From contig SCRN01000013.1 in assembly GCA_004322045.1 (NCBI GenBank), positions 124,001 to 188,000 on the forward strand: a DNA stretch of 64,000 nucleotides, in the 5' to 3' direction. This document shows positions 35,107 through 60,377 of the stretch, in pieces (the first letter of the stretch is position 1; each line of letters starts with the position of its first letter). The notes beneath the pieces are model-generated. The model had not been told where the DNA came from. It saw nothing but the letters and a program-made list of their open reading frames with translations, and did no database searches. A program made the translations under genes and the position numbers. This stretch comes from Paraburkholderia sp. (GTDB lineage Bacteria; Pseudomonadota; Gammaproteobacteria; Burkholderiales; Burkholderiaceae).

Positions 35107-35183
35107 CGGCAAGCATCGCATGAACGTGCGGCGTGCGCGCAAGCGCCGCCGCCTCTCTCGCCAAACATCGCATCGGAATAAAA

Positions 35184-35672: not shown

Positions 35673-35737
35673 TGAAGTGAATGCGGTGCGCCGCCCGGCG
35701 GTGGCGCACCCATGGTTTTGGGTTCTACGCTTACGTT

Positions 35738-39005: not shown

Positions 39006-39016
39006 CCCGGCCCATC

Positions 39017-41719: not shown

Positions 41720-41720
41720 C

Positions 41721-43646: not shown

Positions 43647-43656
43647 CGCTGCCGCC

Positions 43657-43677
43657 TACCTGATACCTGATACCTGA
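43657..43677 (+). repeat. TACCTGA tandem repeat, three copies
   Basis: Three exact, adjacent copies of the heptamer TACCTGA in the 43-base gap between vgrG and the MORN-repeat gene. Such heptamers can change copy number by slippage; here it would alter spacing only, not a reading frame. Confidence 0.8.
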
Positions 43678-43689
43678 TAAACGACCGCC

Positions 43690-44418
43690 ATGTCCGCTCC
43701 CACGCCCGCGAGTTCTCCGCTTTCCCCGGCCGCACCGCCGGGTGCGCTCGCGCACGCCGTGATCGAGCAGCGCGATCCGAGCGGCGCCGTGATCGCGCGC
43801 ACGTCGATGGCGGGCGGCGTGCCGCACGGCGCGATGACGCGTTGCACGCCCGACGGCAGGCCCACGTTGGAAGCGCAGTATGCGCACGGGGCGTTGTCCG
43901 GGCAGATGCGCGCGTTCGATCCGCCGGGCGTGCCCGTGAAAGAGGCGCATTACGTCGATGGCAAGGAGCATGGCGTGACGACGCTGTATCAGGATGGCCG
44001 TGTCGCCGCCCGGCAGCGCTTTGCAGCGGGGGTGCTTCAGGGCGAAAGCGTGTCGTATGCGCCCTCGGGCCAGGTCACGTCGCGGCTTCCCTACCTAGCC
44101 GGCAAGCTAGAGGGCGAAGCCGTGTATTTGCACGAAGGCGTAGTCGTGCGGCGCGCGCGATACCGCGCGGGGACACTCGAAGGAGAAACGCGCGAGTACG
44201 CCGCCGATGGCACGCTGGTGCAGAGCCTTCCGTATCGCGCCGGCTTGCTGCATGGAACGGCCCGGCGCTTCGCCCCGGATGGCCAAGCGCTGGCCGAGCG
44301 CCGCTATGCAAGCGGCAAGCCGCAGGAGGCATGGCGCAGCGTGGACGCACCTGTTGCCGGTGCGGCGGGCGGGTTGCCGAAGATCGTCGCGAACTTCGAG
44401 AAATGGGTGAAGGGCTGA
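43690..44418 (+). CDS. MORN/YwqK-like repeat protein
   Basis: The 242-residue protein consists of about seven repeats of the type G(E/x)-Y-DG-L---YR-G-L-G (examples GTLEGETREYAADGTLVQ and GLLHGTARRFAPDGQALA), the MORN/YwqK pattern. Such proteins lie beside PAAR-like DUF4280 genes and vgrG in many T6SS loci and may act as adaptors or chaperones for effectors; that role is inference. The N-terminal 25 residues are Pro/Ala/Ser-rich. It ends three bases before the DUF4280 gene, so the two are coupled. Confidence 0.85.
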   Translation: MSAPTPASSPLSPAAPPGALAHAVIEQRDPSGAVIARTSMAGGVPHGAMTRCTPDGRPTLEAQYAHGALSGQMRAFDPPGVPVKEAHYVDGKEHGVTTLYQDGRVAARQRFAAGVLQGESVSYAPSGQVTSRLPYLAGKLEGEAVYLHEGVVVRRARYRAGTLEGETREYAADGTLVQSLPYRAGLLHGTARRFAPDGQALAERRYASGKPQEAWRSVDAPVAGAAGGLPKIVANFEKWVKG

Positions 44419-44421
44419 GCC

Positions 44422-44808
44422 ATGGGCATTCTCGTCACCACCGGCGCCACGTTGCAGTGCAGCTTCGGCGTGGCGCCTTCGTCGCTGAACGTGCTGCCGA
44501 CTGCGTGCGTCATGTCCGGCGCGCCAGCCGCGTCGATCATGGACAACGCGCCCATGGTCAACGTCATGCCGTTCGGCATGTGCAGCTGCCCGGCCAACCC
44601 GCAGGTGGCGGCGGCGACGGCGGCGGCGCTCGGCGTGCTCACGCCGATGCCGTGCGTGCCGGTCACGGCGGCGCCGTGGGCGCCAGGCTCGCCGACGGTG
44701 TTGGTCGGCGGTATGCCCGCTTTGCAGGACAGCTCGAAATTGATGTGCAACTGGGGCGGCGTGATCCAGATCGTCGCGCCGGCGCAATTCACCACCATGG
44801 TTCCCTGA
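44422..44808 (+). CDS. DUF4280 PAAR-like spike tip protein
   Basis: Small cysteine- and proline-rich protein (128 residues) of the DUF4280 family, thought to cap VgrG like PAAR. The features are the opening GATLQCSFGVAPSSLNVLP, repeated short glycine/proline turns, MCSCPANPQVAAATAAALGVLTP, PCVPVTAAPWAPGSPTVLV and the closing LMCNWGGVIQI. It has no C-terminal toxin domain. It lies directly after the MORN protein. Confidence 0.9.
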   Translation: MGILVTTGATLQCSFGVAPSSLNVLPTACVMSGAPAASIMDNAPMVNVMPFGMCSCPANPQVAAATAAALGVLTPMPCVPVTAAPWAPGSPTVLVGGMPALQDSSKLMCNWGGVIQIVAPAQFTTMVP

Positions 44809-44820
44809 GGACGCGTCCCG

Positions 44821-45063
44821 ATGCCTTACGTTTTTTCCATGACTGCGCGAATGGCGACGATTGCAGCGTGCTGCATTCTGCTGCTATGCGTGCTGCTGTT
44901 CCTGCTCGGTGTCGAGATCGGTGCACGCTATGCTGCGCCGGCCGCGTCGGCCGCGCCAGTTGCTTCCGCCGCGCCTGCCGCTGCTGCCGTGAGCGACCGC
45001 GCGCCGCTGCCGGCGAGTGCGGACGCTGCGACGCCCGCCGCACCCGCTTCCAATGCTTCTTGA
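44821..45063 (+). CDS. Small single-span membrane protein
   Basis: The 80-residue protein has one strong membrane helix (ACCILLLCVLLFLLGVEIG, about 18-36) followed by an Ala/Pro-rich, probably periplasmic tail. No family recognised. It lies 12 bases after the DUF4280 gene and 22 before the solute-binding protein, so it belongs to the operon. Composition is that of a real gene, but the low-complexity tail limits confidence. Confidence 0.6.
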   Translation: MPYVFSMTARMATIAACCILLLCVLLFLLGVEIGARYAAPAASAAPVASAAPAAAAVSDRAPLPASADAATPAAPASNAS

Positions 45064-45085
45064 AAACTGTCAACGGTAATCGCTT

Positions 45086-46069
45086 ATGTCTACGCTTCAC
45101 ACTTCGTGTCCCGCACCGCACCGGCGTCACCTCTCGGCCCGCTCGCTGCGCGCGTTCGCCGGTCGCGTTGCGGCCGCTTTGACGATCGGCTTTTCGGTTT
45201 TCACGGGAGCGGGAATGGGTTCTGCCGCCGCGGCGGCCACGGTGGCGGCAGCGCCTGCCGCGGTAGCTTCGACGCCGGCCAGCGCGCCGCTTGCCGTGAC
45301 GTCGACCGGGCTCGTGCGCATGCCAGACGGGCGCCTGCTCGCGCCCGAGTTCGCGCGCATTGTGAACCGCGGCGAATTGGTGGTGGCGATGCTCGGCGTC
45401 GATCAGCCGCCGTTCTTCGAGACGCGCAACGGCCGCCTGCAAGGCATCGACGTCGATATCGCCGACGAATTGGCCGCTAAGCTCGGCGTCAAGGTGCGCT
45501 TCAACCGCGACGCGAAAACCTTCGACGGCGTGGTCGGCCTGCTCGCGAACGGCGACGCCGATCTCGCGATCAGCAAGTTGTCGCGAACGCTGGCGCGCGC
45601 CGAGCTCATCAGCTTCAGCACGCCGTATGTCCGGCTGCATCGCGCGCTCCTGCTCAATCGCATCAACTTCGCGCAGGTGGCGCATGGCCGCACCGCGCCC
45701 GACGTGATCCGTTCGTACGACAGCACGATCGGCGTGGTGATGAACTCGTCTTACTCGCAATATGTGCGCACCAACTTTCCGGATGCGAAGGTCAGGCCGT
45801 ATCCGAGTTGGGATGCGCTCCTCGGTGCGCTCGACAAGGGGGAAGTGACGGCCGCTTACCGCGACGAATTCGAAGTGAAGCATGTCCTCAAAAGCAACCC
45901 GACGGCATCGCTGAAGCTGCGCGTGGTCACGCTGGACGATCTCGACGATCCGATCGCGATCGGTGTGAACGTATCGACGCCCGCCATGCTCGCGTTCGTC
46001 AATCAGTTCCTGAGCGAACGCAGCAAGAAGCTCGACGTCAAGACGTTGCTGCAGGCAACCGATAACTAA
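45086..46069 (+). CDS. Periplasmic amino-acid-type solute-binding protein (SBP_bac_3)
   Basis: The 327 residues start with a signal sequence or anchor (about 25-60, low-complexity Ala-rich region to 80) and then a full SBP_bac_3 fold (about 90-320), with GELVVAMLGVDQPPFFE, GIDVDIADELAAKLGVKVRF, DLAISKLSRTLARAELISFS and DDPIAIGVN. These bind polar or acidic amino acids in ABC systems. No ABC permease or ATPase is near; instead a DAACS carrier follows by 28 bases. It may serve as a sensor or as an unusual partner of the carriers. Confidence 0.85.
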   Translation: MSTLHTSCPAPHRRHLSARSLRAFAGRVAAALTIGFSVFTGAGMGSAAAAATVAAAPAAVASTPASAPLAVTSTGLVRMPDGRLLAPEFARIVNRGELVVAMLGVDQPPFFETRNGRLQGIDVDIADELAAKLGVKVRFNRDAKTFDGVVGLLANGDADLAISKLSRTLARAELISFSTPYVRLHRALLLNRINFAQVAHGRTAPDVIRSYDSTIGVVMNSSYSQYVRTNFPDAKVRPYPSWDALLGALDKGEVTAAYRDEFEVKHVLKSNPTASLKLRVVTLDDLDDPIAIGVNVSTPAMLAFVNQFLSERSKKLDVKTLLQATDN

Positions 46070-46097
46070 AAAGACAGCGCATTTCGGAGACCGAACG

Positions 46098-47375
46098 ATG
46101 AATACTAAAAAGCTTTATGCCTTCGCCGTGAACCCGTGGGTGGTGATCGGCGCGCTCGCGCTCGGCAGCGCTTTCGGCTTGTTGCTTCCCGCGATGGCGG
46201 CGAGGCTGGAGGTGATCGGCGATCTTTACGTCAACTTGTTGAAGATGACGACGTTGCCGTTCATGGTATCGGCGGTGATCTTCAGCCTGCAGCGCCTCTT
46301 TCGCGATGGCGGCACATCGCGGCTGCTGCTGCGCGTGGTGATCGTGATCTTGGGCGCATCGGCGACGGTCGCGCTCGTGGGCGCGATCGTGCTGTTGACG
46401 ATGCGCCCAGGCGTCAATATCTCGACGGCAACGATGCATACGTTCGGCGCGATGGTGGGCAGCGACGATTCGGGCTCGAACGAGACGGTAATGAGCCTGT
46501 ATGGAACGGACACCGTGCCCAAGACCATCGGCTTGACCGACATGCTCAAAAGTCTGGTCCCGAGCAATATCTTCGCGGCGCTGGCCAGCGGCGACGCGCT
46601 CAAGGCGTTGGTGTTCGCATTGCTGTTCGGCCTGGCCGTTGGCCGCGTGCCGGAACGCATCTCGGTAGGCTTGAGCCAAGCGCTCGAAACCGTGTATCAC
46701 GCGTGCCAGAAGCTCATGCATTGGCTCAGCTATCCGCTGCCGCTGATCCTGTTCTGCATGAGCGCCGCGCAGTTGGGCAAATCGGGGGTGGGGCCGCTGC
46801 ATGCGATGCTGCAATTCGTCATCGCGTTCTTCGTCGTTGCGTTGTTGCTGCTCGTCATTGCCGCGACCATCATCTGGAAGCGTTCGGCCAATTCGCTCGG
46901 CAGCACGCTCGAGGCACTGCGTGCGCCGTTCGCGCTCGCACTCGCGACGCGCAACAGCGCCGCCTGCATGCCGAGCATGATCGAAAGCCTCGTCGACCGG
47001 CTCGGCTTTGCCCGCTCGCGCGTCGAGTTGATGGTGCCGCTGACGGTGTCGCTCTTACGCGTCGGGCCGATGGTCTACTACGTGTGCGCAACGCTGTTCA
47101 TCGCGCAGCTCTACGGCAAGCACCTCGGTGTGGCCGAAGTCGCCACCGTCCTGCTCGCATCGGTCCTTGCGGGCTTCGCATCGGCGGGGATGACCGGTCT
47201 CGTGACGGTGTCGCTGATCGGCATGACTTGCGTGTACCTGAGCCTGCCGTTCGAGGCGGCCTTCATTCTGTTCCTTGCAGTCGATCCGCTGTGCGACATG
47301 CTGCGCACGCTGATCCTCGTCATCGGCAATACGGCGGCCGTGTCGATCATTTGCCCCCGGCCGCTCAAGCTCTAG
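46098..47375 (+). CDS. DAACS-family dicarboxylate/amino-acid carrier, sodium-site residues altered
   Basis: The 425-residue inner-membrane protein has eight hydrophobic helices and the hairpin HP1 TRNSAACMPSMIESL of the glutamate transporter fold. TM8 keeps the substrate ligands as VDPLCDMLRT (GltPh D394, R397). The TM7 NMDGT motif is replaced by LRVGP, and the TM8 sodium ligands N401 and D405 (GltPh numbers, by alignment) read L and N. Coupling may therefore differ from the usual sodium mode. It lies between the solute-binding protein and the racemase (10 bases before it). Confidence 0.85.
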   Translation: MNTKKLYAFAVNPWVVIGALALGSAFGLLLPAMAARLEVIGDLYVNLLKMTTLPFMVSAVIFSLQRLFRDGGTSRLLLRVVIVILGASATVALVGAIVLLTMRPGVNISTATMHTFGAMVGSDDSGSNETVMSLYGTDTVPKTIGLTDMLKSLVPSNIFAALASGDALKALVFALLFGLAVGRVPERISVGLSQALETVYHACQKLMHWLSYPLPLILFCMSAAQLGKSGVGPLHAMLQFVIAFFVVALLLLVIAATIIWKRSANSLGSTLEALRAPFALALATRNSAACMPSMIESLVDRLGFARSRVELMVPLTVSLLRVGPMVYYVCATLFIAQLYGKHLGVAEVATVLLASVLAGFASAGMTGLVTVSLIGMTCVYLSLPFEAAFILFLAVDPLCDMLRTLILVIGNTAAVSIICPRPLKL

Positions 47376-47384
47376 GGGGCGGCC

Positions 47385-48095
47385 ATGGCGTTGATAGGCA
47401 TCCTAGGCGGCATGGGGCCGCTTGCCACCGTCGATTTCATCGAACGGGTGATCGCGTTGACGACCTCGGCCGGGGCCTGGTGCGACCAGCAGCATTTGCC
47501 GTTGCTGGTGGCGCATCTGCCGCATATTCCCGACCGGTCCGAGGCGTTGCTCGGCACCGGCGAAAACCCGTTGCCGGCGCTGCTGCGCGGCATCGACATG
47601 TTGAACCGAAACGAGGTGGAGCTCATCGTCATTCCCTGCAACTCGGCCCATCACTGGTACGACGCGATGTGCGCCGAGAGCCGCGCGCCCATCATTCACA
47701 TCGCCGAGGCGAGCGTCGCGGCGCTGCCCGCAGGCATCGGGCGCGTGGCTGTGCTGGCGACGGGCGGCACCTTTCATTGCGGGCTCTATCAGCGCATGCT
47801 CGCCGCGCGCGGGTTCGAAGCGGTCGAGCCGGACCTCGACACGCAGCGGCACATCGATGCGTGTATCCGCGACGTCAAGGCCGGAAAGATCGGCGCATCG
47901 ACCGAACACCTCGCGCTTGCGCTGGACTGGTTCGTCCGTCATGGCGCGAAGGCGGGCATCCTGGGCTGCACCGAGTTGCCGCTTGCCGCGCAGCAGATGG
48001 ACGCTGCGCCTATCCCGATGATCGACAGCACGCTCGAACTCGCGCGCGCGACAGTGTCGTACGGTCTCGCGCACGGCTGGAATCAGGCGCTATGA
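47385..48095 (+). CDS. Aspartate/glutamate racemase family protein
   Basis: Cofactor-independent two-cysteine racemase of the Asp/Glu family. The 236 residues start with IGILGGMGPLAT and hold both catalytic cysteines: C85 in IPCNSAHHW and C195 in LGCTELPL. Both are present, so it should be active; whether the substrate is aspartate, glutamate or another acid is not readable. It is flanked by two carriers, and its stop overlaps the start of the second as ATGA (48092-48095). Confidence 0.93.
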   Translation: MALIGILGGMGPLATVDFIERVIALTTSAGAWCDQQHLPLLVAHLPHIPDRSEALLGTGENPLPALLRGIDMLNRNEVELIVIPCNSAHHWYDAMCAESRAPIIHIAEASVAALPAGIGRVAVLATGGTFHCGLYQRMLAARGFEAVEPDLDTQRHIDACIRDVKAGKIGASTEHLALALDWFVRHGAKAGILGCTELPLAAQQMDAAPIPMIDSTLELARATVSYGLAHGWNQAL

Positions 48096-49513
48096 ACAAG
48101 CTGAGACAACTGCCCAATTCGGCGCTGCTCTTGCTGCTGTGCGTGCTGCTGGGCGCTGTCGCGGGCGCGTTCGCCGAGCCGGTGGGCGAGGCGGCCTATG
48201 CGGTCGGCCAGCTCTACATTTCGATTGTCAATATGGCTGCCGTCCCGTTGCTCGTGGTGGCCATGTTCTTCGGGCTGCGCCAGCTCATGGGGCTACCGCG
48301 TCCCGGCCTGCGTATCGGCACGATGCTGATGTTGGCGCTTGCGCTCGTGGCGCTATCGGCCCTCGCCGGGACGCTGGCCGGCGTGGTCGCGGCGCCCGGA
48401 TTGGGCTTGTCGCAAGCTGCGCATGCCGAGCTTGGCCGGCTGATCTTGTCTAGCGGCGGCGATGCCGGCGAAGTGCGCATGGCGCTGTTCTCGCAAGGCG
48501 CACAAGGCACACCCGAGCATCTGTTCGCACTGACCGAAATCGTCCCCGACAATTTCTACGGCGCGCTTGCGAACGGCCGGGCGCTCGGCATCCTGACCTG
48601 CACGATCGTCTTCGGCATGGCGTTCGCCGCCCTGTCCGCCGAGCAGACGAAGGTGCTCAACGGCATCTTCGAGAGCATCTACCGCACGCTCGAAGCGCTG
48701 ATCGATTACGCCAACCTGTTGTTGCCCGTGCTGGTCTTCGGCACGGCCGCCCATATGGTCGCGCATATGCCGCGCGAGATTCTATCGGCGATGGGCGGCT
48801 TCATTTTCGTCTTCGTGATTTCGGCGGGCGTATTGTCGTGCATCGCGCTTGCCACGATCGCAGCGCGTACGCGCGTCTCGTTCAGCCATACCGTCGCATC
48901 CCTGCGCGCGCCGATGTTGGTCGGATTCACGTCCGGCACGGCGACCGCGGCGATCCCCCACACGATCGAGGCGATGAGCGCGAAGCTCGGCCTCAGTCGA
49001 GGCGTAGCGGATCTCGTCGTGCCGTTCGGTGCGGTGTTTTTGCGCGCCGGTTCGGCGCTTTACTTCGCGCTCGTCGCCTCCTTCGTCGCGAACTTGTACG
49101 GCAACTCGCTCAGTCTCGGCGATTGTGTAATGATCTGCGCCGCCTCCACGGTGGCCGCGTTCGCATCGGCAGGGCGCAACGGCGTGGGGGGCATTGCCGT
49201 TGCGGGAATCGCCTTGTCGCTGCTGCGTTTGCCCGTGGAGGCCGCTTTGGTGATATTCGTCGGGATCGATCTGATTTGCGACGGTCCGCGCAATTTGCTG
49301 AGCCTGCTGTCCACCTGCATGGTCGTGGCGCTGGCGTCGGCGGGCTTGCAAACCGATCGGGCCGCTAGCGCTCAACCGAGCGCGATGCCGCATCGCGATT
49401 CCGTGGTCGTGCGCCTGGCGTTCACACGCGCGCAGCTTGCGGTAGTGGCGGGCTGCGCCTTCGTGGCGGCTTCTTTGATCGTAGTCATGGGTATAGGAGT
49501 GGGGGCAAGATGA
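48092..49513 (+). CDS. Second DAACS-family carrier, sodium-site residues altered
   Basis: A 473-residue carrier of the same family as that at 46098, but clearly divergent from it. Hairpin HP1 reads TSGTATAAIPHTIEAMS, and TM8 IDLICDGPRNLLSLLST keeps D394 and R397 (GltPh numbering by alignment), whereas N401 and D405 read S and T. The TM7 NMDGT is LRAGS; both carriers share the Arg in that place. A hydrophobic helix of about 25 residues is added at the C-terminus. Start ATG 48092 overlaps the racemase; a long open frame upstream is not coding. It ends in ATGA with tssJ. Confidence 0.88.
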   Translation: MNKLRQLPNSALLLLLCVLLGAVAGAFAEPVGEAAYAVGQLYISIVNMAAVPLLVVAMFFGLRQLMGLPRPGLRIGTMLMLALALVALSALAGTLAGVVAAPGLGLSQAAHAELGRLILSSGGDAGEVRMALFSQGAQGTPEHLFALTEIVPDNFYGALANGRALGILTCTIVFGMAFAALSAEQTKVLNGIFESIYRTLEALIDYANLLLPVLVFGTAAHMVAHMPREILSAMGGFIFVFVISAGVLSCIALATIAARTRVSFSHTVASLRAPMLVGFTSGTATAAIPHTIEAMSAKLGLSRGVADLVVPFGAVFLRAGSALYFALVASFVANLYGNSLSLGDCVMICAASTVAAFASAGRNGVGGIAVAGIALSLLRLPVEAALVIFVGIDLICDGPRNLLSLLSTCMVVALASAGLQTDRAASAQPSAMPHRDSVVVRLAFTRAQLAVVAGCAFVAASLIVVMGIGVGAR

Positions 49514-50091
49514 CCGACTGGCGACGCTCTGCGGGACAGCCTTCCTTCGCGCATGGCAGCGTGCTGCGCGATGCGCACGCGTGCTCGCGCGCAACGAGGT
49601 ACGCGGCGCGCGGCAACACGGCTCGCATCCGGCGATGGGCCGCGGGCCTCATGGCCGCAGTGTGCTTGGCGGGACTTGGCGGGTGTTCGATGCTGTTTCC
49701 GTCGGGCGACAAAGTGAAATGGGACGAGCTCACGCTCGCGGCAAGCGACGAAGCGAACAACGACAGCCCGGTCGCCGTCGACGTCGTATTCGTGACGGAC
49801 AAGACCCTGCTCGCCCGCGTGGCGGAGCTGCCCGCTTCGAAATGGTTTGCCGTGCGCGGCGATCTTGCCGCCACCTTTCCCGATTCGATCCGCTATCAAA
49901 GTTGGGAGCTCGTGCCCGGCCAACGGCTCGTCGTGCCCGGAGAAAAGCTTCGAGGGCCGCGCGTGGCGGGCGTCTTCGTATTTGCGGACTACTCGGGGCC
50001 GGGCGCCAATCGCGTACGCGTCGAGCGGTTCAACGGCCGGCTCGTCGTGCAGCTGGGCGACAACGCATTTTCCGTTTCGAGTGTGAAATGA
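49510..50091 (+). CDS. tssJ: T6SS outer-membrane lipoprotein TssJ
   Basis: Anchors the TssJLM membrane complex in the outer membrane. The lipobox LGGC places the lipidated cysteine at C59, and the mature part KWDELTLAASDEANNDSPVAVDVV onwards is typical of TssJ, with the loop-rich FAVRGDLAATFPDS and RLVVPGEKLRGP. The predicted start ATG 49510 overlaps the previous stop by four bases but leaves a signal sequence with about 40 residues before the hydrophobic core; a later alternative start would be needed for a normal length. Confidence 0.9.
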   Translation: MTDWRRSAGQPSFAHGSVLRDAHACSRATRYAARGNTARIRRWAAGLMAAVCLAGLGGCSMLFPSGDKVKWDELTLAASDEANNDSPVAVDVVFVTDKTLLARVAELPASKWFAVRGDLAATFPDSIRYQSWELVPGQRLVVPGEKLRGPRVAGVFVFADYSGPGANRVRVERFNGRLVVQLGDNAFSVSSVK

Positions 50092-50175
50092 CCGAACTTC
50101 GCTGTTCCTTCGATCGTCGGCGCGCAACCCCGCCGCGCGCCTGCCGGGCCTTTCTCCTTGACGGGAGGCGCCGTC

Positions 50176-51507
50176 ATGTCTGAGCGACTCGTTCCTGTCG
50201 TCGACCGCGTCGAGTGGTTCGAGGGCATGCTGCTCGCGCCGCAGCACTTTCAACTGCTCGGCGCGCGTGTCGATTCGCTCGTCGCGTGGCAGAGCTTGGC
50301 CGCGGCCCCGTTCAGTTGGGGCGTGCGGCGCCTCGTGTTCGACGAGGGATTGCTCGCGGCAGGTATCGTGCGCGTGCTTGCGCTCGAGGCGATCATGCCT
50401 GATGGCACGGCGGTGTCGTATTCGGCCGAACTCGCTCAGCACGGCCGGCTCGAGCTGTCGCTCGCCCCGTTCGCGGAGCGGCTCGCCACGGCTGCGCTAG
50501 AGATCTATCTGACGCTGCCCGTCGCTTCGTCGGCGCGCGGCGAATCCGACATGCGCCGGTTCCGCTCGGTGGCGGGCGAGCCGGTGGAAGACGACACCTC
50601 GGGCGCGCCGCCGGCCGACATTCCCCGCCTCGTGCCGAACCTCGCCCTCGAAGCGGGCGAAGTGCCGTCCGGGCGCTTCGTGTCGCTGTGTCTCGGCGCC
50701 GTCTACAAGGACAATGAAGTCGTCAAGCTCGGAGAGCGTCAACCTCCGCTGCTCGAAGTGGCGCGCGACAATCCGCTTTGGAAAGCGGTTGCGGGGCTGC
50801 TCGGCCAAGTGCGCGGCAAGGCGGCGTTCGTCGCGCGGCAGACGGCCATCCCCTCGTCGAAGGCGGATGATCGCTTGACCCAGCTCGAGCTGAAGGACCG
50901 CTTGCGCAGCCTCCTTTCGGCGCTGCCGCTGGCCGAAGCCGTATTGCGTACGCCACATCTGCATCCGCTCGCGCTCTATCATGCCCTCGCCGCGCTGCAT
51001 GGCTCGCTGTCGATGCTCGCGCCCGGTGGCCTGCCGCCCGTGCCGCCGGACTACGATCATGCCGATCCGCTCGCCGTCTTCACGCCGCTGCTCGGCTCGT
51101 TGCGCGAAGCGATCGCCGAAGTGAGCGAAGGGTACCGCGAGCGCAAGTTCCGCTACGGCAACGAGATGTTCGAGATCGTCCTGCAGGCGCAGTGGGTGCA
51201 GGGGCGGCTGGTCGTCGGCTTGCGCGGCCAATCGGATCGAGATCTGCTCGCTTGGATCGATGGCGCAGTGATCGGCTCCGAGTCGGTCTATGCATCGCTG
51301 CGCAGCCGGCGCGTGCTCGGCGCGGCGCGCCGCGCGGTGGAGTATGCGGAGGAGCTCGGCATACGGTCGGGTTCCGGCTACCTGCTGTTCGAGGTGCAAG
51401 CCGATCCCGCGCTCGTGCGTGCAGGCGAGGCCCTTGTCATCAGCAATCCGAACGAAGGGGCCAGCGCGCAGCGGCCTCAGGAAATGCTGCTGTTCACGAA
51501 AGACTGA
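50176..51507 (+). CDS. tssK: T6SS baseplate-membrane connector TssK
   Basis: Links the baseplate to the membrane complex. The 443 residues begin with MSERLVPVVDRVEWFEGMLL and APQHFQ, the family signature. Start ATG 50176 has GGGAGGCG upstream; six earlier open codons are less likely. The C-terminal domain that contacts TssL is present (about 330-443). The gene follows tssJ by 84 bases. Confidence 0.96.
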   Translation: MSERLVPVVDRVEWFEGMLLAPQHFQLLGARVDSLVAWQSLAAAPFSWGVRRLVFDEGLLAAGIVRVLALEAIMPDGTAVSYSAELAQHGRLELSLAPFAERLATAALEIYLTLPVASSARGESDMRRFRSVAGEPVEDDTSGAPPADIPRLVPNLALEAGEVPSGRFVSLCLGAVYKDNEVVKLGERQPPLLEVARDNPLWKAVAGLLGQVRGKAAFVARQTAIPSSKADDRLTQLELKDRLRSLLSALPLAEAVLRTPHLHPLALYHALAALHGSLSMLAPGGLPPVPPDYDHADPLAVFTPLLGSLREAIAEVSEGYRERKFRYGNEMFEIVLQAQWVQGRLVVGLRGQSDRDLLAWIDGAVIGSESVYASLRSRRVLGAARRAVEYAEELGIRSGSGYLLFEVQADPALVRAGEALVISNPNEGASAQRPQEMLLFTKD

Positions 51508-51521
51508 CGGTGTACACCACG

Positions 51522-52280
51522 ATGGCACGCACCCCTATCGAAACGAAAGAGAACGACCTCGCGATGGACCAGTTTTGCGCGTTCCTCGACGAACTCGTCA
51601 AATCGCAACGGCGTTTCTCCGAGGCGGCCGAGGCCGATGCAGAGCAAGCTGCACAGGGCATGTCGCGGCATCTTTTGAACGTGCTCGAGATTCAGACGCT
51701 GCAGTCGCGCCGCGACAGTACGCGCTTCGACATCGAGAACGTGGCGGACGCCCGCTACCTCAAAGCCGTTCTCGCCGACGAATTGCTGCTCAACACGCCG
51801 TGGGCTGGGCGTGAGCGCTGGACCGCATACTTGCTCGAATCGTCGCTGTTCCGCACCAACATCGCGGGCGACCTCGTCTTCAAGAAGATCGAGGAATTGC
51901 TGTCGGACCGCGAGCCGTCGCGTCGAGAAATCGCTCGGTTGTACCTCTTCGCGCTCGCGATGGGCTTTCAAGGGCGCTTCCGCGGCGCGGGCGAGCAGGC
52001 CGATGCGCGACTGCGCAGCTATCGCGAGGAACTCTACGAATTCATTTATCAGCGCCGCGCCGATTTGGGCGGGCGCGATCGTGTGGTGGCCGAGTCCGCG
52101 TATACGAACACGCTTTCCCATATCGCGCCGCGCAAGCTGCCGACCGTCAGCCGGTGGAGCGTGATGACGCTGCTCGCGGTCGTTGCGTTGCTTGCGATTT
52201 CGGAGATGCTGTGGCTGTGGCAGTCGTGGCCGGTGCGTCAGGCCTTGCACGGCGATACCGTGGTGGGAGCGAGCTCATGA
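51522..52280 (+). CDS. tssL: T6SS inner-membrane protein TssL (DotU)
   Basis: The 252 residues hold the cytoplasmic DotU domain (about 20-200, with RYLKAVLADELLLNTPWAG) and one C-terminal membrane helix (MTLLAVVALLAISEMLWLW). There is no peptidoglycan-binding OmpA domain, so anchorage to the wall must come from another protein. Start ATG 51522 is 14 bases after tssK. ATG at 51564 (MDQFCAF) is an alternative. Confidence 0.94.
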   Translation: MARTPIETKENDLAMDQFCAFLDELVKSQRRFSEAAEADAEQAAQGMSRHLLNVLEIQTLQSRRDSTRFDIENVADARYLKAVLADELLLNTPWAGRERWTAYLLESSLFRTNIAGDLVFKKIEELLSDREPSRREIARLYLFALAMGFQGRFRGAGEQADARLRSYREELYEFIYQRRADLGGRDRVVAESAYTNTLSHIAPRKLPTVSRWSVMTLLAVVALLAISEMLWLWQSWPVRQALHGDTVVGASS

Positions 52281-52317
52281 ACGCCTTGCATCGTTCGTTC
52301 ATTGCGGGGGCGGCGCT

Positions 52318-55300
52318 ATGCTGACGAGCAATCTTTTCCTGTTGTCGGTCGCCGTGCTGATCGTCGTCGTGCTCGTCGTGCTCGGTGCGATTTTCTGGAT
52401 CGCGGCGCATAGCGCGCAGAACAAGCCGGCCGCCGACCGCAAGATCGTGCGGTTGCGCACGGATTCGCTGCGTAACGCGTTTCGCCATGCCGTCGAGCTG
52501 ATCGAAGGCAACATCGCCTCGCGCAGCGAGCGTTACAACGTGCCGTGGGTCATCGTCCTGAACGAAGGCGAAGACCCACGTCCGCTGCCGATCGCGCAAG
52601 CGGGCGTCGCAAGCGTCTTGAGCTCGGAGGCGGCCAACCCGGCCGCGATCCAAGGCATCTCGTGGAATTTCTTCGATCGCGGCGTCGTGATCGACATCAA
52701 GGCCGCCTACCTCGGCTCGCCCGACGAAAGCAGCGACGAAAAGCCGTGGGACGAATTTCTGAGCCTGTGCCGCAACTACCGGCCGCAGCGGCCGTTCGAT
52801 TCCGTCGTCGTGACCGTGCCGGCTTCCATGCTGCTCGCCGACCACCCCGACGCGCGGCTCGAATTGGAGCGCCACGCGAAGCTCGCACATCGCCGGCTAT
52901 GGCTCGCACAGAATCGCTTCGCGATGCGCTTTGCGGTCTACGTCGTCGTGACCGGCTGCGAGGATCTCGAAGGCTTCGCCGGGTTCGCGCGCGCGTTGCC
53001 CGAGCCGCTGCGTGCAAGCATGCTGGGCTGGTCTTCGCCGTTCGACCTGTCCACGACCTACCAATCGAGCTGGGTCGATGCCGCGATGGGCGGCATCGAG
53101 CGCGCGGTGTCGGACGCGAGCGCCGAATTGTTCACGCTCGATACGGGCATGCTCGACGTGCAGGGGTGTCTGCTGCTGCCCGCGCGCGTCGATGCGATAC
53201 GTGCGCAGTTGCAGCTGTATGTCGATGAACTGATGCGGCCGAGCGCCTATCACGAGCCGTTCTTCTTCCGCGGCATTTACCTGACCGGTGACAGCGGCGA
53301 ACTCGCGCAGCGGGGCGTCGAAGACCGGCAGCAGGCAGGCGACGCGGCGGCGCTCGATGCGCCCGAGGCGATCGATCCGTATGAAGCGCCGCGCGAGCCG
53401 CGCTTCGTAGCGGAGCCGGGTGCCGACACGGAGGGGCTGGAGCACGACGGGCACGACGGCGGCCGGGCGTTGAACGACCTCATGCTGCAGCCGGCCTTCC
53501 TGCGCGACTTGTTCGAGAAGAAGATCTTCCTCGAATACGGGTTGACGCGGCCGTCGCGCTCTCAACATCTCACACGGCCGTTGCTGCATCGCGCGGTGCG
53601 TTGGGGCGCGATTGCCATGTTGGGCGGCTGGACGATCGGGCTCACCGGCGCGACGTTGGTGTTGAGCCATCGCAACCCGCGGCTCGTCGCCGCATTGAAC
53701 GAACTGCACATCGATTCACAGGAACGCGACGCGGCCGCGCGCGGCGGCGAGGCTTTGCCGTCGGACTGGTACCGCAAGAAGACGTTGTCGTTGATCGGCA
53801 TGAACGATCAGCACATCGGCACGCTTTGGACCGTGTTCATGCCTGGCTCGTGGAGTGCATTCGACGATTTGGACGAACGCGTGCGGGCTCGCTTCGAACA
53901 CGAGTTCGGCGAGATCGCACTAACGGCGCTCGAACGCGAGATGCTGCTGCGCGTGAGCCGAATGACTGGCGTGGCGAGCGATCCGAGCACCGGCCAACTG
54001 ATTGCCGGCGGCGACTGCGCCGCTCCGGCGCTCGGCAGCGATTCGCCCGTGGTCAGCAGCTTGGCCGTCGAAGACCTGCCCGCGATGCAAGCGATGCAGC
54101 GTTATGTCTCTTCGGTCGATCAGCTCGATGCGGCCTTGGCGGCCATGCAGCGGTTGCAGCGGCCATCCTCGGGCAACGAAGAGGCGCTGCGGCTCGTGGT
54201 GCGCTATGCATTCGGCGTCGAACTGCAGGGCAACGTCGCCGGTAGCCTGCGTTATTTCTATCGCGATGCTTCGCGCCGCGGCGGCGCGTATTCGGCAGAC
54301 GGCACGGGCGGTTTGAATACGCCGGTGATTCGCGACGCAGTGCGCTGCACGTTCGATAAAGGCGCGCAGCAACTCGATGCGCAGATGTTCACGGGCAACC
54401 CGCTACTCACGGCCGAACGCGCGGTGACCGCACAGATCGACGCCTTGTCGGTCGGCGGCGTCGGCCTGGGCGATTTTGCGCAGACGGACGGCAGCTATCA
54501 GGCGATCGTCTCCGGCATCGACACGCAGCAACGACTGCTCGCCTCCGGCAAGGCGGGCTGGATGCACCAGGCTCAGTTCAACCCCGGCCCCGTGTGGGAG
54601 CGCACGTTCGTTCGCGCCACGCAAAACCGGCTGCTCGGCGCCGACCTCGTCGCGCAAACGCGGGAGCGTTCGGCCACGGCGTTCCAGGCTTTCACCAGCG
54701 AAATGGCGCAGCGTTTCGGCGGCCCGGACGGCGCCATCGTTTGGGTAGATAAGGATGCGCGCTACGCGGTTTCGCCGGCGCGGCTCGCTTTGCGCGACGG
54801 CTTGGCCAAGTTGTTGGCGCAGCCGTTCATGGTGGCGCCGCGCAATCTATCGTTGCCGACGGTGGCCGACGGTTCGATCGTGACGTGGGACCGCACGCGG
54901 CTGGATCAGGCGGTTGCAATCGGCGACGAGCGCAAGAAGTATCTGACCGATGGCCTTGCGACTCTGCCCGATGCCGTTCGGCCCGCCGTGCAGCAAGCGC
55001 TCGATGCGCAGTTTGCGCGTCTCGTCCTCGATCAAGTGGCGTCGGCGGCGTCCGTGTCGCCCACGGATGGCGATCCGAACAGTGCAGCTTTCGAGGCGGC
55101 ACGCCCCCGGCTCGTGAAAATCCGCGCCGCGCTTGCGGAAATGGGAGCGAACGCGCAGGCGAGCGATCTGGACATGTTCGTGTCGAGCGACGCCATGCAG
55201 CACCTCCGTCTGGTGGATGCGATGCTGACGCAATCGGATCTCTACGCGACCCGCCCGGCGTACAGCGGATCGACCACAGTCAAGCCGGTGCTTGCGGCAT

Positions 55301-56478
55301 TCGGCGTGAACGATGTGGCAGCGCTGAACGCGTATCTGCAGCAGCAATCGTTGCGAGCGCTCACGCTAGGCAAAGATGCGAAGACGTATTTGGCGGCGCT
55401 CGATGCCGCCGACGCGAATTCGCCGCTCGCGCAGCGTTGGCAGGCGATCGTCACCGATCTGGAGCGCTACCAGCTCAAGAACCCGAACAGCGGCTTGTTG
55501 ATGCTCGAGCAGTTCTTGCAGACGGTCGCGGCCGATCCGAACGCGACCGATTGCGTCGACCGCTTCCCGCCGCGCCCAGCCGGTGTGGGCGGAGATTACT
55601 TCACGACGCTGCACATGCGGCTTTACGATGGCCTGCTGACGCGCTGCGGCTCGAGTTATGCAAGTACGTTGAGCAGAGAGTGGGATGGCTTCGCCACCGT
55701 GTTCAATCAGAGCGTGGCTTGGCGCCGGCCGTTCAGCAGCCCCTCGCGGTCTGTAAAACTGAACGACGCGGACGCAATGCCTGCCGATTTCGGCGAGCTC
55801 GGTGCGGCTTTGAAGCGCTACGAACAGGTGGCTTCCTCGCTGCGTTCGGCTGGCGGCCCCGGCGCGCGGGCCATTCATGCGGAGGCGGTGCGCCGCTTCG
55901 TCGAGCAGTTCGATCCCGTCGATGCATTGCTCTCGCCGCTTTATCCCGCTGCGGACGGCACGACCGCGGGCTACGACGTCAACGTCGACTTCCGCGCCGA
56001 CCGCACGGCGGAAGTGGCCGGCAACCAACTGATCGATTGGACGATCCGCATGGGGGATCACAGCCTGTCGATGCAGGATGCCCCGCATTCGCTGCATTGG
56101 GAATACGGCATGCCGGTCACGCTCCTGCTGCGCTTTGCGAAGAATTCGCCGCTGGTGGCGAAGAACGATCCGGCCCAGCGCAATTTCGCGACCGATGGTC
56201 AGACGCTCACATGGCAGTTCACCGACCCATGGGCGTTGCTTTCCTTCGTTTCGGCACAGCGCGTAGCTGATACGACGGTGCGAGCAAGCGCTGGCGCATC
56301 GCTGCTGCGATTCGAATTTCCGCTTGAAACGACCATCCCAGCCGACGCGGCGCTTGTCTCGAAGTTTCCGCGCGGCCGTGTCTTCGTGCGTGTACGGATG
56401 ACGCCCGGCGGCAAGAAGATCCCGCTCGCGTGGCCGAGCAGCTTTCCGACTCACGCCCCGACCTGGAGCGCCTCATGA
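52318..56478 (+). CDS. tssM: T6SS inner-membrane protein TssM (IcmF), no Walker A
   Basis: Spans the envelope between TssL and TssJ. The 1,386-residue protein shows one N-terminal membrane helix (about 5-30) and another at about 425-448, then a large periplasmic part ending in the TssM C-terminal domain. Family TssMs usually have a hairpin of two N-terminal helices and a Walker A GxxGxGK(T/S) after VPW; here VPWVIVLNEGEDPRPLPIAQ lacks it, so ATP binding is probably lost. It follows tssL by 37 bases and overlaps tssA (ATGA 56475-56478). The start ATG 52318 has GGGGGCGG just upstream. Confidence 0.93.
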   Translation: MLTSNLFLLSVAVLIVVVLVVLGAIFWIAAHSAQNKPAADRKIVRLRTDSLRNAFRHAVELIEGNIASRSERYNVPWVIVLNEGEDPRPLPIAQAGVASVLSSEAANPAAIQGISWNFFDRGVVIDIKAAYLGSPDESSDEKPWDEFLSLCRNYRPQRPFDSVVVTVPASMLLADHPDARLELERHAKLAHRRLWLAQNRFAMRFAVYVVVTGCEDLEGFAGFARALPEPLRASMLGWSSPFDLSTTYQSSWVDAAMGGIERAVSDASAELFTLDTGMLDVQGCLLLPARVDAIRAQLQLYVDELMRPSAYHEPFFFRGIYLTGDSGELAQRGVEDRQQAGDAAALDAPEAIDPYEAPREPRFVAEPGADTEGLEHDGHDGGRALNDLMLQPAFLRDLFEKKIFLEYGLTRPSRSQHLTRPLLHRAVRWGAIAMLGGWTIGLTGATLVLSHRNPRLVAALNELHIDSQERDAAARGGEALPSDWYRKKTLSLIGMNDQHIGTLWTVFMPGSWSAFDDLDERVRARFEHEFGEIALTALEREMLLRVSRMTGVASDPSTGQLIAGGDCAAPALGSDSPVVSSLAVEDLPAMQAMQRYVSSVDQLDAALAAMQRLQRPSSGNEEALRLVVRYAFGVELQGNVAGSLRYFYRDASRRGGAYSADGTGGLNTPVIRDAVRCTFDKGAQQLDAQMFTGNPLLTAERAVTAQIDALSVGGVGLGDFAQTDGSYQAIVSGIDTQQRLLASGKAGWMHQAQFNPGPVWERTFVRATQNRLLGADLVAQTRERSATAFQAFTSEMAQRFGGPDGAIVWVDKDARYAVSPARLALRDGLAKLLAQPFMVAPRNLSLPTVADGSIVTWDRTRLDQAVAIGDERKKYLTDGLATLPDAVRPAVQQALDAQFARLVLDQVASAASVSPTDGDPNSAAFEAARPRLVKIRAALAEMGANAQASDLDMFVSSDAMQHLRLVDAMLTQSDLYATRPAYSGSTTVKPVLAAFGVNDVAALNAYLQQQSLRALTLGKDAKTYLAALDAADANSPLAQRWQAIVTDLERYQLKNPNSGLLMLEQFLQTVAADPNATDCVDRFPPRPAGVGGDYFTTLHMRLYDGLLTRCGSSYASTLSREWDGFATVFNQSVAWRRPFSSPSRSVKLNDADAMPADFGELGAALKRYEQVASSLRSAGGPGARAIHAEAVRRFVEQFDPVDALLSPLYPAADGTTAGYDVNVDFRADRTAEVAGNQLIDWTIRMGDHSLSMQDAPHSLHWEYGMPVTLLLRFAKNSPLVAKNDPAQRNFATDGQTLTWQFTDPWALLSFVSAQRVADTTVRASAGASLLRFEFPLETTIPADAALVSKFPRGRVFVRVRMTPGGKKIPLAWPSSFPTHAPTWSAS

Positions 56479-57581
56479 ATCCATCCGATCTGATCGAAGC
56501 CGAATTGAGTTTTGCCGTCGATCTGGCGCCGCTTCTGAGTCCGTTGCCGGAGGGAGACGGTGTAGGCGTATCGCTGCGGTCGGATCCGGTCTGGCAGCAG
56601 ATTCGCGACGCGCAACGCGAGGACGATCCGTCGCTGCCGATGGGGGAGTGGGAGCGCCCGCTCGTCAAGGCCGATTGGAATCTAGTCGCATCGCTCTGCG
56701 TCGAGGCGCTTCGTTCGCGCAGCAAGGACTTCCATCTTGCGGTTTGGTTGTGCGAGGCGTGGACGCGGCTGTACCGTCTCGAGGGCCTCGTGGCGGGCAT
56801 GCAGTTGCTGAACGATTTCGTCGATCGGTTCTGGGAGCATGCATACCCGCAAATCGACGGCGAAGACACGGACGCGCGCGCGGCTCCGCTTCATTGGATC
56901 GGCCGCCAGCTCGAAATCGTGCTGAAACTTCATGTGCCGTTGATCGGCCTGCCGGTCGAGCCGGGCTTCGTCAATCTCGACGATTGGCGCCGCGTCGTTG
57001 CGGCATCGATGCAGGAAGAGGACGGGCCGGCCACGCGCTTGCCGCGGGAGATGCTCGATCGCGAGGCGGCGCAAGGATCGAATCTCGCTTTGCTCCGACA
57101 GCTCGAGCGCACTGCTGGCACCGTGCTGGCCGCGATCGACGCGCTATCGCGCCGGCTCGACCATCATTTGGGCGACGAAGCGCCGAGCTTTACGCGGGTT
57201 GCGGCCACATTGAGCGAGCTGCAGCGTGCGGCGCGCGCGCTGCGCGGCAATCACGTTCTGGACGAACTGCCGGCGGCTGCGCGGTCGGAGCCCGATGAAG
57301 TTATCGCGATCGAACATGACGATACGCCACTGGAGGTTGATATGCAGCCACGAGTGCTACCCCTTACCCGCGAGCATATCGTCGATCGATCGCATGCTTA
57401 TCGGTTGCTCGAAGAGATTGCACGCTATCTTGCCGAGCATGAGCCTCATAGCCCCACGCCATATTTGTTGGCGCGCGCCGTTAGCTGGGGCCGCATGCCG
57501 CTGCCGGACCTGATGCGTGACATCGTCAGTCAGGAAGGCGATCTCGGCCGGTATATGGCGATGCTGGACGTAGAACTATAA
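56475..57581 (+). CDS. tssA: T6SS assembly protein TssA
   Basis: The 368 residues begin with an ImpA_N domain (about 1-170, with GVSLRSDPVWQQIRDAQREDDPSLP and the following WNLVASLCVEALRSRSKDFHLAVWL), which in the family primes the baseplate and tube. The C-terminal half has the helices IVDRSHAYRLLEEIARYLAEHEPHSPTPYLLARAV of the short TssA class. Start ATG 56475 overlaps the tssM stop. Last recognised core gene of the locus. Confidence 0.94.
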   Translation: MNPSDLIEAELSFAVDLAPLLSPLPEGDGVGVSLRSDPVWQQIRDAQREDDPSLPMGEWERPLVKADWNLVASLCVEALRSRSKDFHLAVWLCEAWTRLYRLEGLVAGMQLLNDFVDRFWEHAYPQIDGEDTDARAAPLHWIGRQLEIVLKLHVPLIGLPVEPGFVNLDDWRRVVAASMQEEDGPATRLPREMLDREAAQGSNLALLRQLERTAGTVLAAIDALSRRLDHHLGDEAPSFTRVAATLSELQRAARALRGNHVLDELPAAARSEPDEVIAIEHDDTPLEVDMQPRVLPLTREHIVDRSHAYRLLEEIARYLAEHEPHSPTPYLLARAVSWGRMPLPDLMRDIVSQEGDLGRYMAMLDVEL

Positions 57582-57608
57582 GCGCCGACGCGCGCGAGGG
57601 GGCGAACG

Positions 57609-58982
57609 ATGGCAAAGGTGCTGGCGTGGTGTGCGCAGACGATGGGATTCGATTTCCACCCGGCCAAGCATATGCCGGTGGGACTCGCGTCGATCCACCA
57701 GATGCGCGAGCGCGTGACGCGCATCTATGCGTTTATCGACGCGGGCGGCAGAAAATCGGGTGAACGGACGAACCTGATTTCGTATCCGATTTCGCTGCGT
57801 CCTTTCGACGCGAGCATGTTTCACTCGCAGGACGATTACGATGAGATGCCTGCGCATACGGAGCGGGGGCACCTGATCGCCGACGTGTACGGCGGCGACG
57901 ACGACGAGCGCAATCTCGTGCCGATGCCGCGGCTGTTCAACCAGCAGACGTGGAAGATGCAGGTGGAAGCGGCGCTGAGCACGCTGGCCGCCTCGCGCAC
58001 CGACGAGTTGCTGGGAATGAAGATCGATTGCCACTACGATGGGCTCGATCCACGGATTCCCTCGCGATATTCCGTGGATTTCTACACGTTCGGCAAGAAG
58101 AACGACCTGCGCATCCGCGCCGGTTGGGAAAACGTGCTTTCGAGTGCTAACGCGATCTTCGGTGATATCCCGCGCGGCTACCAAAGCTCGATCGGCTTGC
58201 TGTTCAATCCGTTCAACTTCAAGCATATGCGCACGCTCACGCTTACGCCCTCGCTGCCGGGGCCGATCGTGCCGGAGGACGTTTCCGTGGTGGGGACGAT
58301 GAGCCTCGCTACGCTGCGCGAGCTCGTGACGGAGTTGCGCGAGCCGTTGCTCAGGGCGCATGCGGTGGTGACGGCTATCGGGTGGCGCTTGGAGAATACG
58401 CGCGATGCGACCTTCTTCAGTTTCAAGCTGCCGCCGCCGCACCGCCGGCCATACGCCGCGCTGGACTATATGCTCGAGAACGACGTCCTGCAGCGCATTC
58501 ACCCGAAGTTGGAACGGATGACGCTCAGTCAATGTTTCCGTGCGAACGGCTTCGACGATTGGCAGCGCGAACTGATTTTCGCGGCAAATATGATCTTCCA
58601 CGGCTACGATGCGTTGCTCGTTTCCGATAATGAGGATGACGAGGTCTATCGAGAAGTCGAGGTGACGATGGATCTGAGTGCCGCGCCCGCTGCGCGCTCG
58701 ACGATGGGGCGTTACGAGTATGCGGTGCGCGAATGGGCGCAGGCGGTGAATTTGCCGTCGCACTACAGGGTGCCGCGCGGTGCGTTGTTTCTCGATTCGA
58801 CTGCGTTTGCACCGCAGGTGGATCACATCATTGCGAAGGCTGGATCGGGCAATGGGATCGATGCGTTTAGTAATGCGCAGGTGGTGAGTGGCCGGTGGAA
58901 TCGGGCGAAATCCGATGATGTCATCGAACCGGGGACGGTGGCGCATGTGCGGGAGTGGCGCAGTGCGCGTCGGCGGCTTTGA
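57609..58982 (+). CDS. Putative nuclease with two nuclease-like motifs, T6SS-linked
   Basis: The 457-residue soluble protein has no signal peptide. Residues about 83-160 match Endonuclease_NS_2 (DNA/RNA non-specific) features: RGHLIAD (H88), GGDDDERNLVPM (N102), N111 and W115 in FNQQTWK, then YDGLDPRIPSRYSVDFYT. Residues 402-436 look like an HNH motif: VDHIIAK (D405, H406), SNAQV (N422) and NRAKSD (N431). The middle (about 165-400) is unknown. It follows tssA by 27 bases and ends the locus; the next gene is convergent after 30 bases, with no room for an immunity gene downstream. An effector role is inference; DNA processing or anti-phage roles are possible. Confidence 0.7.
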   Translation: MAKVLAWCAQTMGFDFHPAKHMPVGLASIHQMRERVTRIYAFIDAGGRKSGERTNLISYPISLRPFDASMFHSQDDYDEMPAHTERGHLIADVYGGDDDERNLVPMPRLFNQQTWKMQVEAALSTLAASRTDELLGMKIDCHYDGLDPRIPSRYSVDFYTFGKKNDLRIRAGWENVLSSANAIFGDIPRGYQSSIGLLFNPFNFKHMRTLTLTPSLPGPIVPEDVSVVGTMSLATLRELVTELREPLLRAHAVVTAIGWRLENTRDATFFSFKLPPPHRRPYAALDYMLENDVLQRIHPKLERMTLSQCFRANGFDDWQRELIFAANMIFHGYDALLVSDNEDDEVYREVEVTMDLSAAPAARSTMGRYEYAVREWAQAVNLPSHYRVPRGALFLDSTAFAPQVDHIIAKAGSGNGIDAFSNAQVVSGRWNRAKSDDVIEPGTVAHVREWRSARRRL

Positions 58983-59012: not shown

Positions 59013-60377
59013 CTAGCGGCGAGCGCTCCCTTCAAGCCCGCTCTCGCATTCGCTGTCCTTCAAATTTTCGACTAGCGCCTCAAAGCCATCCGGCATACCC
59101 GAAGCCGGTGAGCGCAAGATTAGACGTGCGCCGCCCGCCTGAGCGATTGCGTTCGCGATGGCCAGCCCGAGGCCACTCCCTTTGGCTGTCGTCACGCCGC
59201 GCTCAAATGGCTCGATCAGGCGGGAAAGTTTGTCTGCGGCCACGATAGGGCCGCGGTTTATGACGCTCAGCCGGCCTTCGTCCGAGAGCGCGACATCGAT
59301 TGCCTCCGTCTTGGCGCCGTGCTTGACCGCATTCTCAATGAGATTGCGCGCGAGTATGGCGAATGCGTCCGGGTCGATTCGCGAGCGCACGGCACGTTCC
59401 GGCAATTGCAGACGAAGCACGTTCGATCGCTCGGTACGCCCGATGTCCTCGACGACCATGTGAAGAACCGGCCGCAAGTCCTGCGCGGTATCTGCAAGGA
59501 CACGACCGCCCTCTGCCCGGGCTAGTTGCATGAGCTTTTCACTCAGGCGTGCCAGTGTGTGCAACGCCGCCTCGACGTTCCGCGCGCGCGTCTCGACCGG
59601 CGTACCTTTTGTTTCCGATATCAAGCGCTGCGTTTGCGCAAGGGCTGCGGCAATGGGCGTGCGAAGTTCGTGCGCGCTATTGGCGGTGAAACTGCGTTCA
59701 GCCGTCAGCGCGCGGTGCAGCCGCTGCATCAGATCATTCACCGAATCGGCAATGGGTTCGATTTCGGCCACCATCCCCGCCTTGCCCAGCGGGCTAAGGT
59801 CGTCGCGGCCTCTTGCGGCTATGCCGTCGCAGAACAGGCGGATCGGGCGCAGTCCGGAACGAACGACGAGCCACGCGCCGAGAAGACCCAGCGGAACGAT
59901 GAGTAGTAGCGGCTGCAAGGCGGCAAGCGCCGCGTCGACCCCGGCGCGATGACGAGCCTCTAAGGGCTCGGCTATGGTGAGCGACACCGTTCCCTGAAGT
60001 ACCGTCTCCGTGTAAAGCCGATGCGTACGGGTGGAGGTGAATCCGGGTTTGAGCGCCGGCGGAAAGATGGCCGGATTCGCGTCATGGGACTGGAGCAGGA
60101 TCTCGCCTGTCTGGCCGCGGACGATATACGTCAGTAATTCCCCGTGCGCTCGCACGCCCGCGATGCGCTCGGCAGCGCTCTGCTGATCGCGATCGAGCAC
60201 ATCCATTACTGCGAGCGGCACGATGCGCTGTGCCGTCTCCTGCAGCGCACTGTCCGACATCCGATCGATCTCTGCACGCAACACTCGAAACGCCGCGGTC
60301 GCCGCAACGAGCGAGAGCACCGCGAGGCCAATGGCGATCATCGCGGCCAGTCGTGCCTGAAGGCTGCGCAAGATCAC
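59013..60377 (-). CDS. Sensor histidine kinase
   Basis: The 454-residue inner-membrane kinase has two membrane helices (about 10-32 and 150-172) around a periplasmic sensor, a HAMP-like segment, the HisKA box SAHELRTPI (phosphorylated H236), an N-box LARNLIENAVKHG and a G-box GSGLGLAIA. The type is QseC/PmrB-like. Its start overlaps the stop of the response regulator by four bases, so the two form an operon. The sensed signal is unknown; the divergent PepSY genes are the likely targets. Confidence 0.93.
   Translation of the reverse strand: MILRSLQARLAAMIAIGLAVLSLVAATAAFRVLRAEIDRMSDSALQETAQRIVPLAVMDVLDRDQQSAAERIAGVRAHGELLTYIVRGQTGEILLQSHDANPAIFPPALKPGFTSTRTHRLYTETVLQGTVSLTIAEPLEARHRAGVDAALAALQPLLLIVPLGLLGAWLVVRSGLRPIRLFCDGIAARGRDDLSPLGKAGMVAEIEPIADSVNDLMQRLHRALTAERSFTANSAHELRTPIAAALAQTQRLISETKGTPVETRARNVEAALHTLARLSEKLMQLARAEGGRVLADTAQDLRPVLHMVVEDIGRTERSNVLRLQLPERAVRSRIDPDAFAILARNLIENAVKHGAKTEAIDVALSDEGRLSVINRGPIVAADKLSRLIEPFERGVTTAKGSGLGLAIANAIAQAGGARLILRSPASGMPDGFEALVENLKDSECESGLEGSARR

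Follow-up and report, generated by a model that had tools for sequence, protein, structure and literature searches.

What does a protein with two nuclease-type domains do directly behind the last structural gene of a type VI secretion system (T6SS), and how does its producer survive it when no immunity gene stands beside it? The locus that raises this question lies in a stretch of 64,000 nucleotides of a Paraburkholderia sp. genome (contig SCRN01000013.1, positions 124,001 to 188,000; hereafter the window), in which a gene for a 457-residue protein, an open reading frame (ORF) without internal stop (57609..58982, +), follows tssA. The gene encodes two His-Me finger nuclease domains and is a candidate T6SS cargo effector. 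As read from sequence comparison, its product is probably an accessory cargo effector whose N-terminal blade is an EssD-like Endonuclea_NS_2 domain and whose C-terminal blade is a Cas9-type HNH, encoded without a linked immunity gene. It is established that the gene is intact, that family profiles recover both domains, that the catalytic-type residues are invariant, that linkage to T6SS genes is repeated, that presence is variable, and that no immunity gene adjoins the gene at the window site.

The N-terminal Endonuclea_NS_2 domain (residues 78-156; 57840..58076, +) exceeded the gathering cut-off of PF13930 in the window protein (34 vs 27 bits) and was the sole Pfam family found in it, which bears out the Endonuclease_NS_2-like block of the original prediction. 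The domain was above the cut-off in all six full-length members scanned against Pfam, the other five being those of Pseudomonas gingeri (43.3) and of the genomes G114 (35.1), G882 (37.8), G1136 (38.9) and G1085 (28.3). A family profile of eight aligned rows (the window protein with seven relatives whose identity reaches as low as 22%; L007 all but duplicates the window protein, as L009 and L010 do one another) matched the solved chains of the EssD nuclease (8guo) over the NS_2 part (1.2e-7). The window protein alone reached EssD in the PDB at only 0.053, and the match was convincing only with the eight-row profile. H88 and N111 were invariant, and by their roles in NS nucleases would be the catalytic histidine and the metal-ligand asparagine.

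The C-terminal domain (residues 401-440; 58809..58928, +) is of the HNH_4-like, Cas9 type. HNH_4 (PF13395, cut-off 22) was above its cut-off in two of the six full-length members (G1136, 25.0; G114, 23.6). The scores of G882 (21.3) and of P. gingeri (16.9; 19.1 with its tail alone) fell short of it, and the Pfam scans gave no HNH match in the window protein or the G1085 member. The eight-row profile matched the solved Cas9 HNH chain 8f43 over the tail (3.8e-5). In PHROGs, window residues 401-436 matched phrog_589 HNH endonuclease (E = 0.066), and the tail alone gave only a chance hit against the PDB (M152, E 0.34). The D-H ... N set of D405, H406 and N431, presumably the HNH catalytic set, was invariant in the eight rows. 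The window tail (about residues 401-436) is thus a predicted Cas9-type HNH by way of its relatives and not from the window protein alone; the HNH-like tail block first proposed stands through the relatives' HNH_4 scores and the family profile, not through its own score.

Shuffling the window protein 100,000 times never produced an NS-type pattern and produced an HNH-type pattern four times, both optimistic figures because the patterns were written after the sequence had been seen. Judged from the alignment, conservation of G87, H88, N111, D405, H406, N422 and N431 is stronger evidence against chance than these shuffles. Also invariant in all eight rows were P23, R38, P65, G96, P105, M106, P151, P281, N327, L337, S339, D340, A423 and S427. 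The motif letters quoted in the original prediction were all located (RGHLIA at 86, with H88; N102-M106; N111; VDHIIAK at 404, with H406; SNAQV at 421; NRAKSD at 431), and its description of the middle of the protein as matching nothing was correct in that no Pfam family was found there. The middle was not featureless, though: a block conserved across the family in the alignment (residues 275-347; 58431..58649, +) holds PYAxLD, N327, L337 and S339-D340. NCBIfam gave no match in the window protein. The last 20 residues carried a net charge of +3 to +6 in eight of nine sequences and of +1 in the G1085 member, giving most members a basic tail rich in Arg and Lys; speculatively, this tail could serve DNA binding or nuclear entry.

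The two domains had been described as unrelated nuclease folds, and this part of the description fell. HNH_4 presumably belongs to the Pfam His-Me finger clan CL0263. An excerpt of PMC9990079 places both PF13930 and HNH (PF01844) in that clan, so that the protein joins two distant members of a single superfamily in tandem.

The position of the gene was as first described, 27 bp 3' of tssA (56430..57581, +; ImpA_N 111.6 bits), the final structural gene of the T6SS cluster, and when other genomes were checked a gene of the family was found after tssA in G059, in G097 (deleted form) and in G1136 (convergent). Counted by location, with the three Trinickia tssA sites taken as one, the family occupies seven independent sites in Trinickia and Pseudomonas. 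Three of the seven had T6SS structural genes no more than 5 kb away, and at two of these three the gene adjoined the 3' end of tssA. Besides the Trinickia site, these were G1136, where a tssK-L-M-A run ends in tssA and 137 bp separate its 3' end from the convergent gene, and G882, where tssA is 3.3 kb away and tssB, tssC and hcp follow farther out. The occurrence apart from T6SS loci that the original prediction had named as contrary to it was found in part, at the four sites of G114, P. gingeri, Pseudomonas sp. FEN and G1085. Around the gene, tblastn with 13 window T6SS proteins found no T6SS gene in 16.9 kb (P. gingeri), 13.6 kb (FEN), 18 kb (G114) or 16 kb (G1085), a search that missed tssL in G1136 and so is not exhaustive. 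In P. gingeri the contig that carries the gene also carries a T6SS cluster, whose vgrG is some 14.5 kb away from it, and T6SS sheath genes were present in all nine carrier genomes.

The contents of the site 3' of tssA varied within the genus. The window genome is of the same genus as Trinickia sp. Y13, whose protein is 96% identical (ratio of nonsynonymous to synonymous substitution, dN/dS, about 0.07 between the two genes), and as T. dabaoshanensis. A tssA at least 77% identical to that of the window was found in 6 of 11 genus genomes, and the slot behind it held the full gene (G000, the window genome, and G059, Y13), its deleted form (G097, T. dabaoshanensis), a Fic gene (G114) or nothing before a convergent gene (G044). 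In G078 the slot (L068 352-1900) was occupied by a DUF2846 protein and by an unrelated ORF in whose 219 scanned residues Pfam found nothing, possibly a different cargo. Such variation among the six genomes would be expected of cargo and not of machine parts, and argues that what the slot holds is optional.

Two-domain members were found at the Trinickia slot, at an orphan site in G114 (same genus as the window genome) and in P. gingeri (G766), Pseudomonas sp. FEN (G767), G882, G1136 and G1085. The members are rare. Of 398 genomes of the window genome's own taxonomic family, five matched: G000, G059, G114, G097 with its deletion, and G041, whose 769-residue protein ends in NS_2 and lacks HNH. 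Among 388 genomes of the Pseudomonas genus group, 18 matched at all and five (G766, G767, G882, G1136 and G1085) had both domains in one frame. A motif test recognised no further two-domain members in 369 class, 300 order and 200 phylum genomes (5, 8 and 5 matching genomes, G000 each time). This loose test, which would miss diverged cases, placed motifs of both the NS and the HNH type in a single frame in G000, G059, G114, G766, G767, G882, G1136 and G1085, and in no other of the loci covered. We left out matches limited to either the NS_2 or the HNH part, several of which lie in open frames 2,755-4,335 residues long. G410 was set aside as NS_2 only, by eye, and L037 and L102 (NS_2-like, 3' of vgrG-MORN, in two Pseudomonas) as neighbours of the family, with scores under the cut-off (17.5 and 15.4 bits) and no HNH pattern; in both (L037 6045-6959; L102 5376-6449) a tssH-vgrG-MORN run comes first, then an ORF that by eye is DUF4150-like, and then the NS_2-like protein.

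Two other loci of the family had unusual surroundings. L101 (6656-8692) encodes a distant member of 678 residues with a cysteine-rich N-terminal extension and a C-terminal extension, and is followed by a protein with a peptidoglycan-binding domain and a sub-threshold SUKH-4 match. In L034 (8858-12500), beside a Pseudomonas T6SS, the family member is followed by three tandem look-alike ORFs (422, 394 and 376 residues), and scans of two of them gave no Pfam match over the cut-off.

The P. gingeri and FEN genes were 98% identical and shared only a 1283-bp stretch (98.4%) in the 16.9 and 13.6 kb compared, between otherwise unrelated flanks; no repeat was found at both ends of the stretch, where the ends of a mobile element were looked for. 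A Gabija pair (GajA 831 bits, GajB 429 bits) stands about 1 kb away from the FEN copy (L010 131-6996), whose contig also carries, by eye, a transposase-like and another HNH-like ORF. Together with the orphan site in G114 and the lack of an adjacent immunity gene, the shared stretch and its surroundings favour a cytosolic, non-secreted mobile nuclease of defence or DNA processing (anti-plasmid, anti-phage or homing-like), near T6SS genes by chance or in variable slots. Such a nuclease would be unlikely to recur near T6SS genes as it does, since two of the six non-window sites fell within 5 kb of them (binomial p = 0.004, assuming three clusters of 25 kb in 6.5 Mb; post hoc and rough). PADLOC gave no match for the window and P. 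gingeri proteins, and for two other members gave only weak Cas9 matches over the HNH part (E 0.01-0.05). With the window and P. gingeri proteins, tblastn found no phage record. Plasmid records were matched by none with the window protein and by ten with the P. gingeri protein, each over 11% of the query (the NS_2 core), and viral contigs gave 26 pattern matches and no relative. A mobile nuclease outside the T6SS is thus an unlikely account of the family.

T. dabaoshanensis (one assembly) lacks residues 69-321 in frame (253 codons; 57813..58571, + in the window, by sequence comparison), and with them the whole NS_2 domain, and keeps an ORF of 207 residues. A loss of this kind would suit a decayed or inactive remnant. 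Against decay, the reading frame survives the deletion, the eight rows agree in every catalytic-type residue, and the kept HNH stretch (residues 385-440) is 95% identical to that of the window (dN 0.04, dS 1.44, dN/dS about 0.03), vs 81% for tssA (dN 0.107, dS 0.86, dN/dS 0.12), ratios that are rough because dS is high. The HNH tail being more conserved than tssA argues that it still matters without NS_2, although part of its constraint may predate the deletion. Decay is thus a very improbable explanation, and this natural form without NS_2 allows comparison of both blades.

The claim that no candidate immunity gene precedes the next convergent gene was confirmed. The window has no room for one, with gaps of 27 bp to tssA and of 30 bp from the nuclease stop to the end of the convergent ORF, and neither has G1136 (gaps of 100 and 137 bp). 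A conserved neighbouring gene was looked for, and none was seen by eye to recur among the sites, a reading that is weaker for G882 and G1085, whose neighbours are without assigned function; the gene downstream of the G1085 member had a SUKH-4 immunity match of 15.3 bits, under the cut-off of 25.5. EsaG, the immunity protein of EssD-type nucleases, belongs to the YezG-like family. That family was found in none of the nine carrier genomes (the positive control matched in B. subtilis), other immunity families not having been searched genome-wide. The protein may still be a classical antibacterial effector, for which an immunity gene is expected somewhere in the genome, here unlinked; this overlaps with the cargo-effector reading as its antibacterial form, and with neither a recurring neighbour nor a YezG-like gene found it is less likely than not. 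Antibacterial T6SS effectors are described in an excerpt of PMC12135965 as encoded beside an immunity gene, with two immunity proteins needed by double-blade ones, and an excerpt of a Pseudomonas aeruginosa survey (PMC11751169) defines effector genes beside T6SS genes without immunity, tseF being an example. The lack of one here is therefore unusual and not unheard of. A two-nuclease protein behind tssA in two genera without adjacent immunity would make the question of producer survival directly testable.

Several observations weigh against a T6SS cargo effector. An antibacterial nuclease without adjacent immunity is atypical, four of the seven sites are without a T6SS gene within 5 kb, and the window protein carries no fused Hcp, VgrG, PAAR or Rhs part (PF13930 being the only Pfam match). 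Its own HNH score was under every Pfam threshold, and in the eight-row alignment the R of RGH is replaced by N in the G882 member. Structure predictions gave no usable model, with a mean predicted local distance difference test (pLDDT) score of 30.2 for the whole protein and 34.5 for the 133-residue tail (five-row alignments).

With these points counted, delivery by the T6SS is the preferred reading. The protein would be loaded on the T6SS, with the conserved middle block as a candidate loading or spacer part, and injected into a recipient, where it would cut nucleic acid, most likely DNA. It would do so at two metal-dependent active sites, around H88/N111 and around D405/H406/N431. The producer would have no need of an adjacent immunity gene, protection being perhaps unlinked, intrinsic or, with a target other than kin bacteria, unnecessary. 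More tentatively still, and rather doubtfully, a family of T6SS-delivered tandem His-Me finger nucleases may spread one gene at a time, since no immunity gene would have to accompany it, the protein being either autoinhibited in the producer and freed on delivery, or active only where kin are unharmed, e.g., in the cells of eukaryotes such as fungi and amoebae. That TseN, a T6SS nuclease with antifungal action, does have an immunity protein (excerpt of PMC12574953) counts against the kin-harmless, eukaryotic-target form. No description of the two-domain architecture at a T6SS was recognised in the open-access literature (PMC), among the matches listed.

The T6SS cluster (32785..57581, +; ORFs, Pfam matches, in part by eye) runs tssB, tssC, hcp, tssE, tssF, tssG, tssH, vgrG, a MORN repeat gene, amino-acid transport and racemase genes, tssJ, tssK, tssL, tssM and tssA, with the nuclease gene as the final gene on its strand; hcp, vgrG, MORN, tssA and tssC were named from scans and the other tss genes by eye. 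A ribosome-binding-like GAGGGGG (57596..57602, +) was read by eye 6 nt 5' of the nuclease ATG. The convergent gene, a sensor histidine kinase-like ORF named by eye (59013..60377, -), is a flank outside the system, and the fold of the 30-bp gap before it was no better than that of shuffles when a terminator hairpin was looked for (z 0.62). Between the vgrG/MORN part and tssJ (45086-49513, +), an SBP_bac_3 amino-acid binding protein, an SDF dicarboxylate symporter, a second symporter (by eye) and an Asp/Glu racemase form a block for amino-acid uptake and racemization inside the T6SS operon. Adjoining the tssB end (30967-32187, -), a 406-residue protein is a candidate lipase effector: it matched DUF5621 at 38.7 bits (cut-off 25) and, below threshold, a Tle1-like catalytic family at 24.1 (cut-off 27). 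Farther off (20039-21058, -), an ORF of 339 residues has HNH-nuclease-like CxxC ... IDH ... CxxC letters and no Pfam match at E 0.01.

Among known systems, EssD/EsaD, a nuclease toxin of the type VII secretion system (T7SS) with PF13930, has an NS_2 domain with the same order of motifs, and it is against its solved chains that the family profile scored. The present family differs from it by the additional C-terminal HNH, by a T6SS rather than a T7SS locus and by the absence of a YezG-like gene from the nine carrier genomes. With Cas9 it has the HNH part alone in common (HNH_4, tail of the family profile against solved Cas9 HNH domains), and the family protein as a whole is no Cas9. Awe1 and other double-blade effectors of the WHIX class resemble it in having two toxic domains that flank a middle part; as excerpted, their domains predominantly target the periplasm and the double-blade ones require two immunity proteins (PMC12135965), whereas none is adjacent here, and the WHxxxH motif of WHIX effectors was found in none of nine family sequences. 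The Dickeya T6SS effectors RhsA and RhsB carry the same two domain types (PF13930 and PF01844) as T6SS toxins in the excerpt of PMC9990079; there the domains are on two separate Rhs proteins, whereas here both are on one small protein without an Rhs core.
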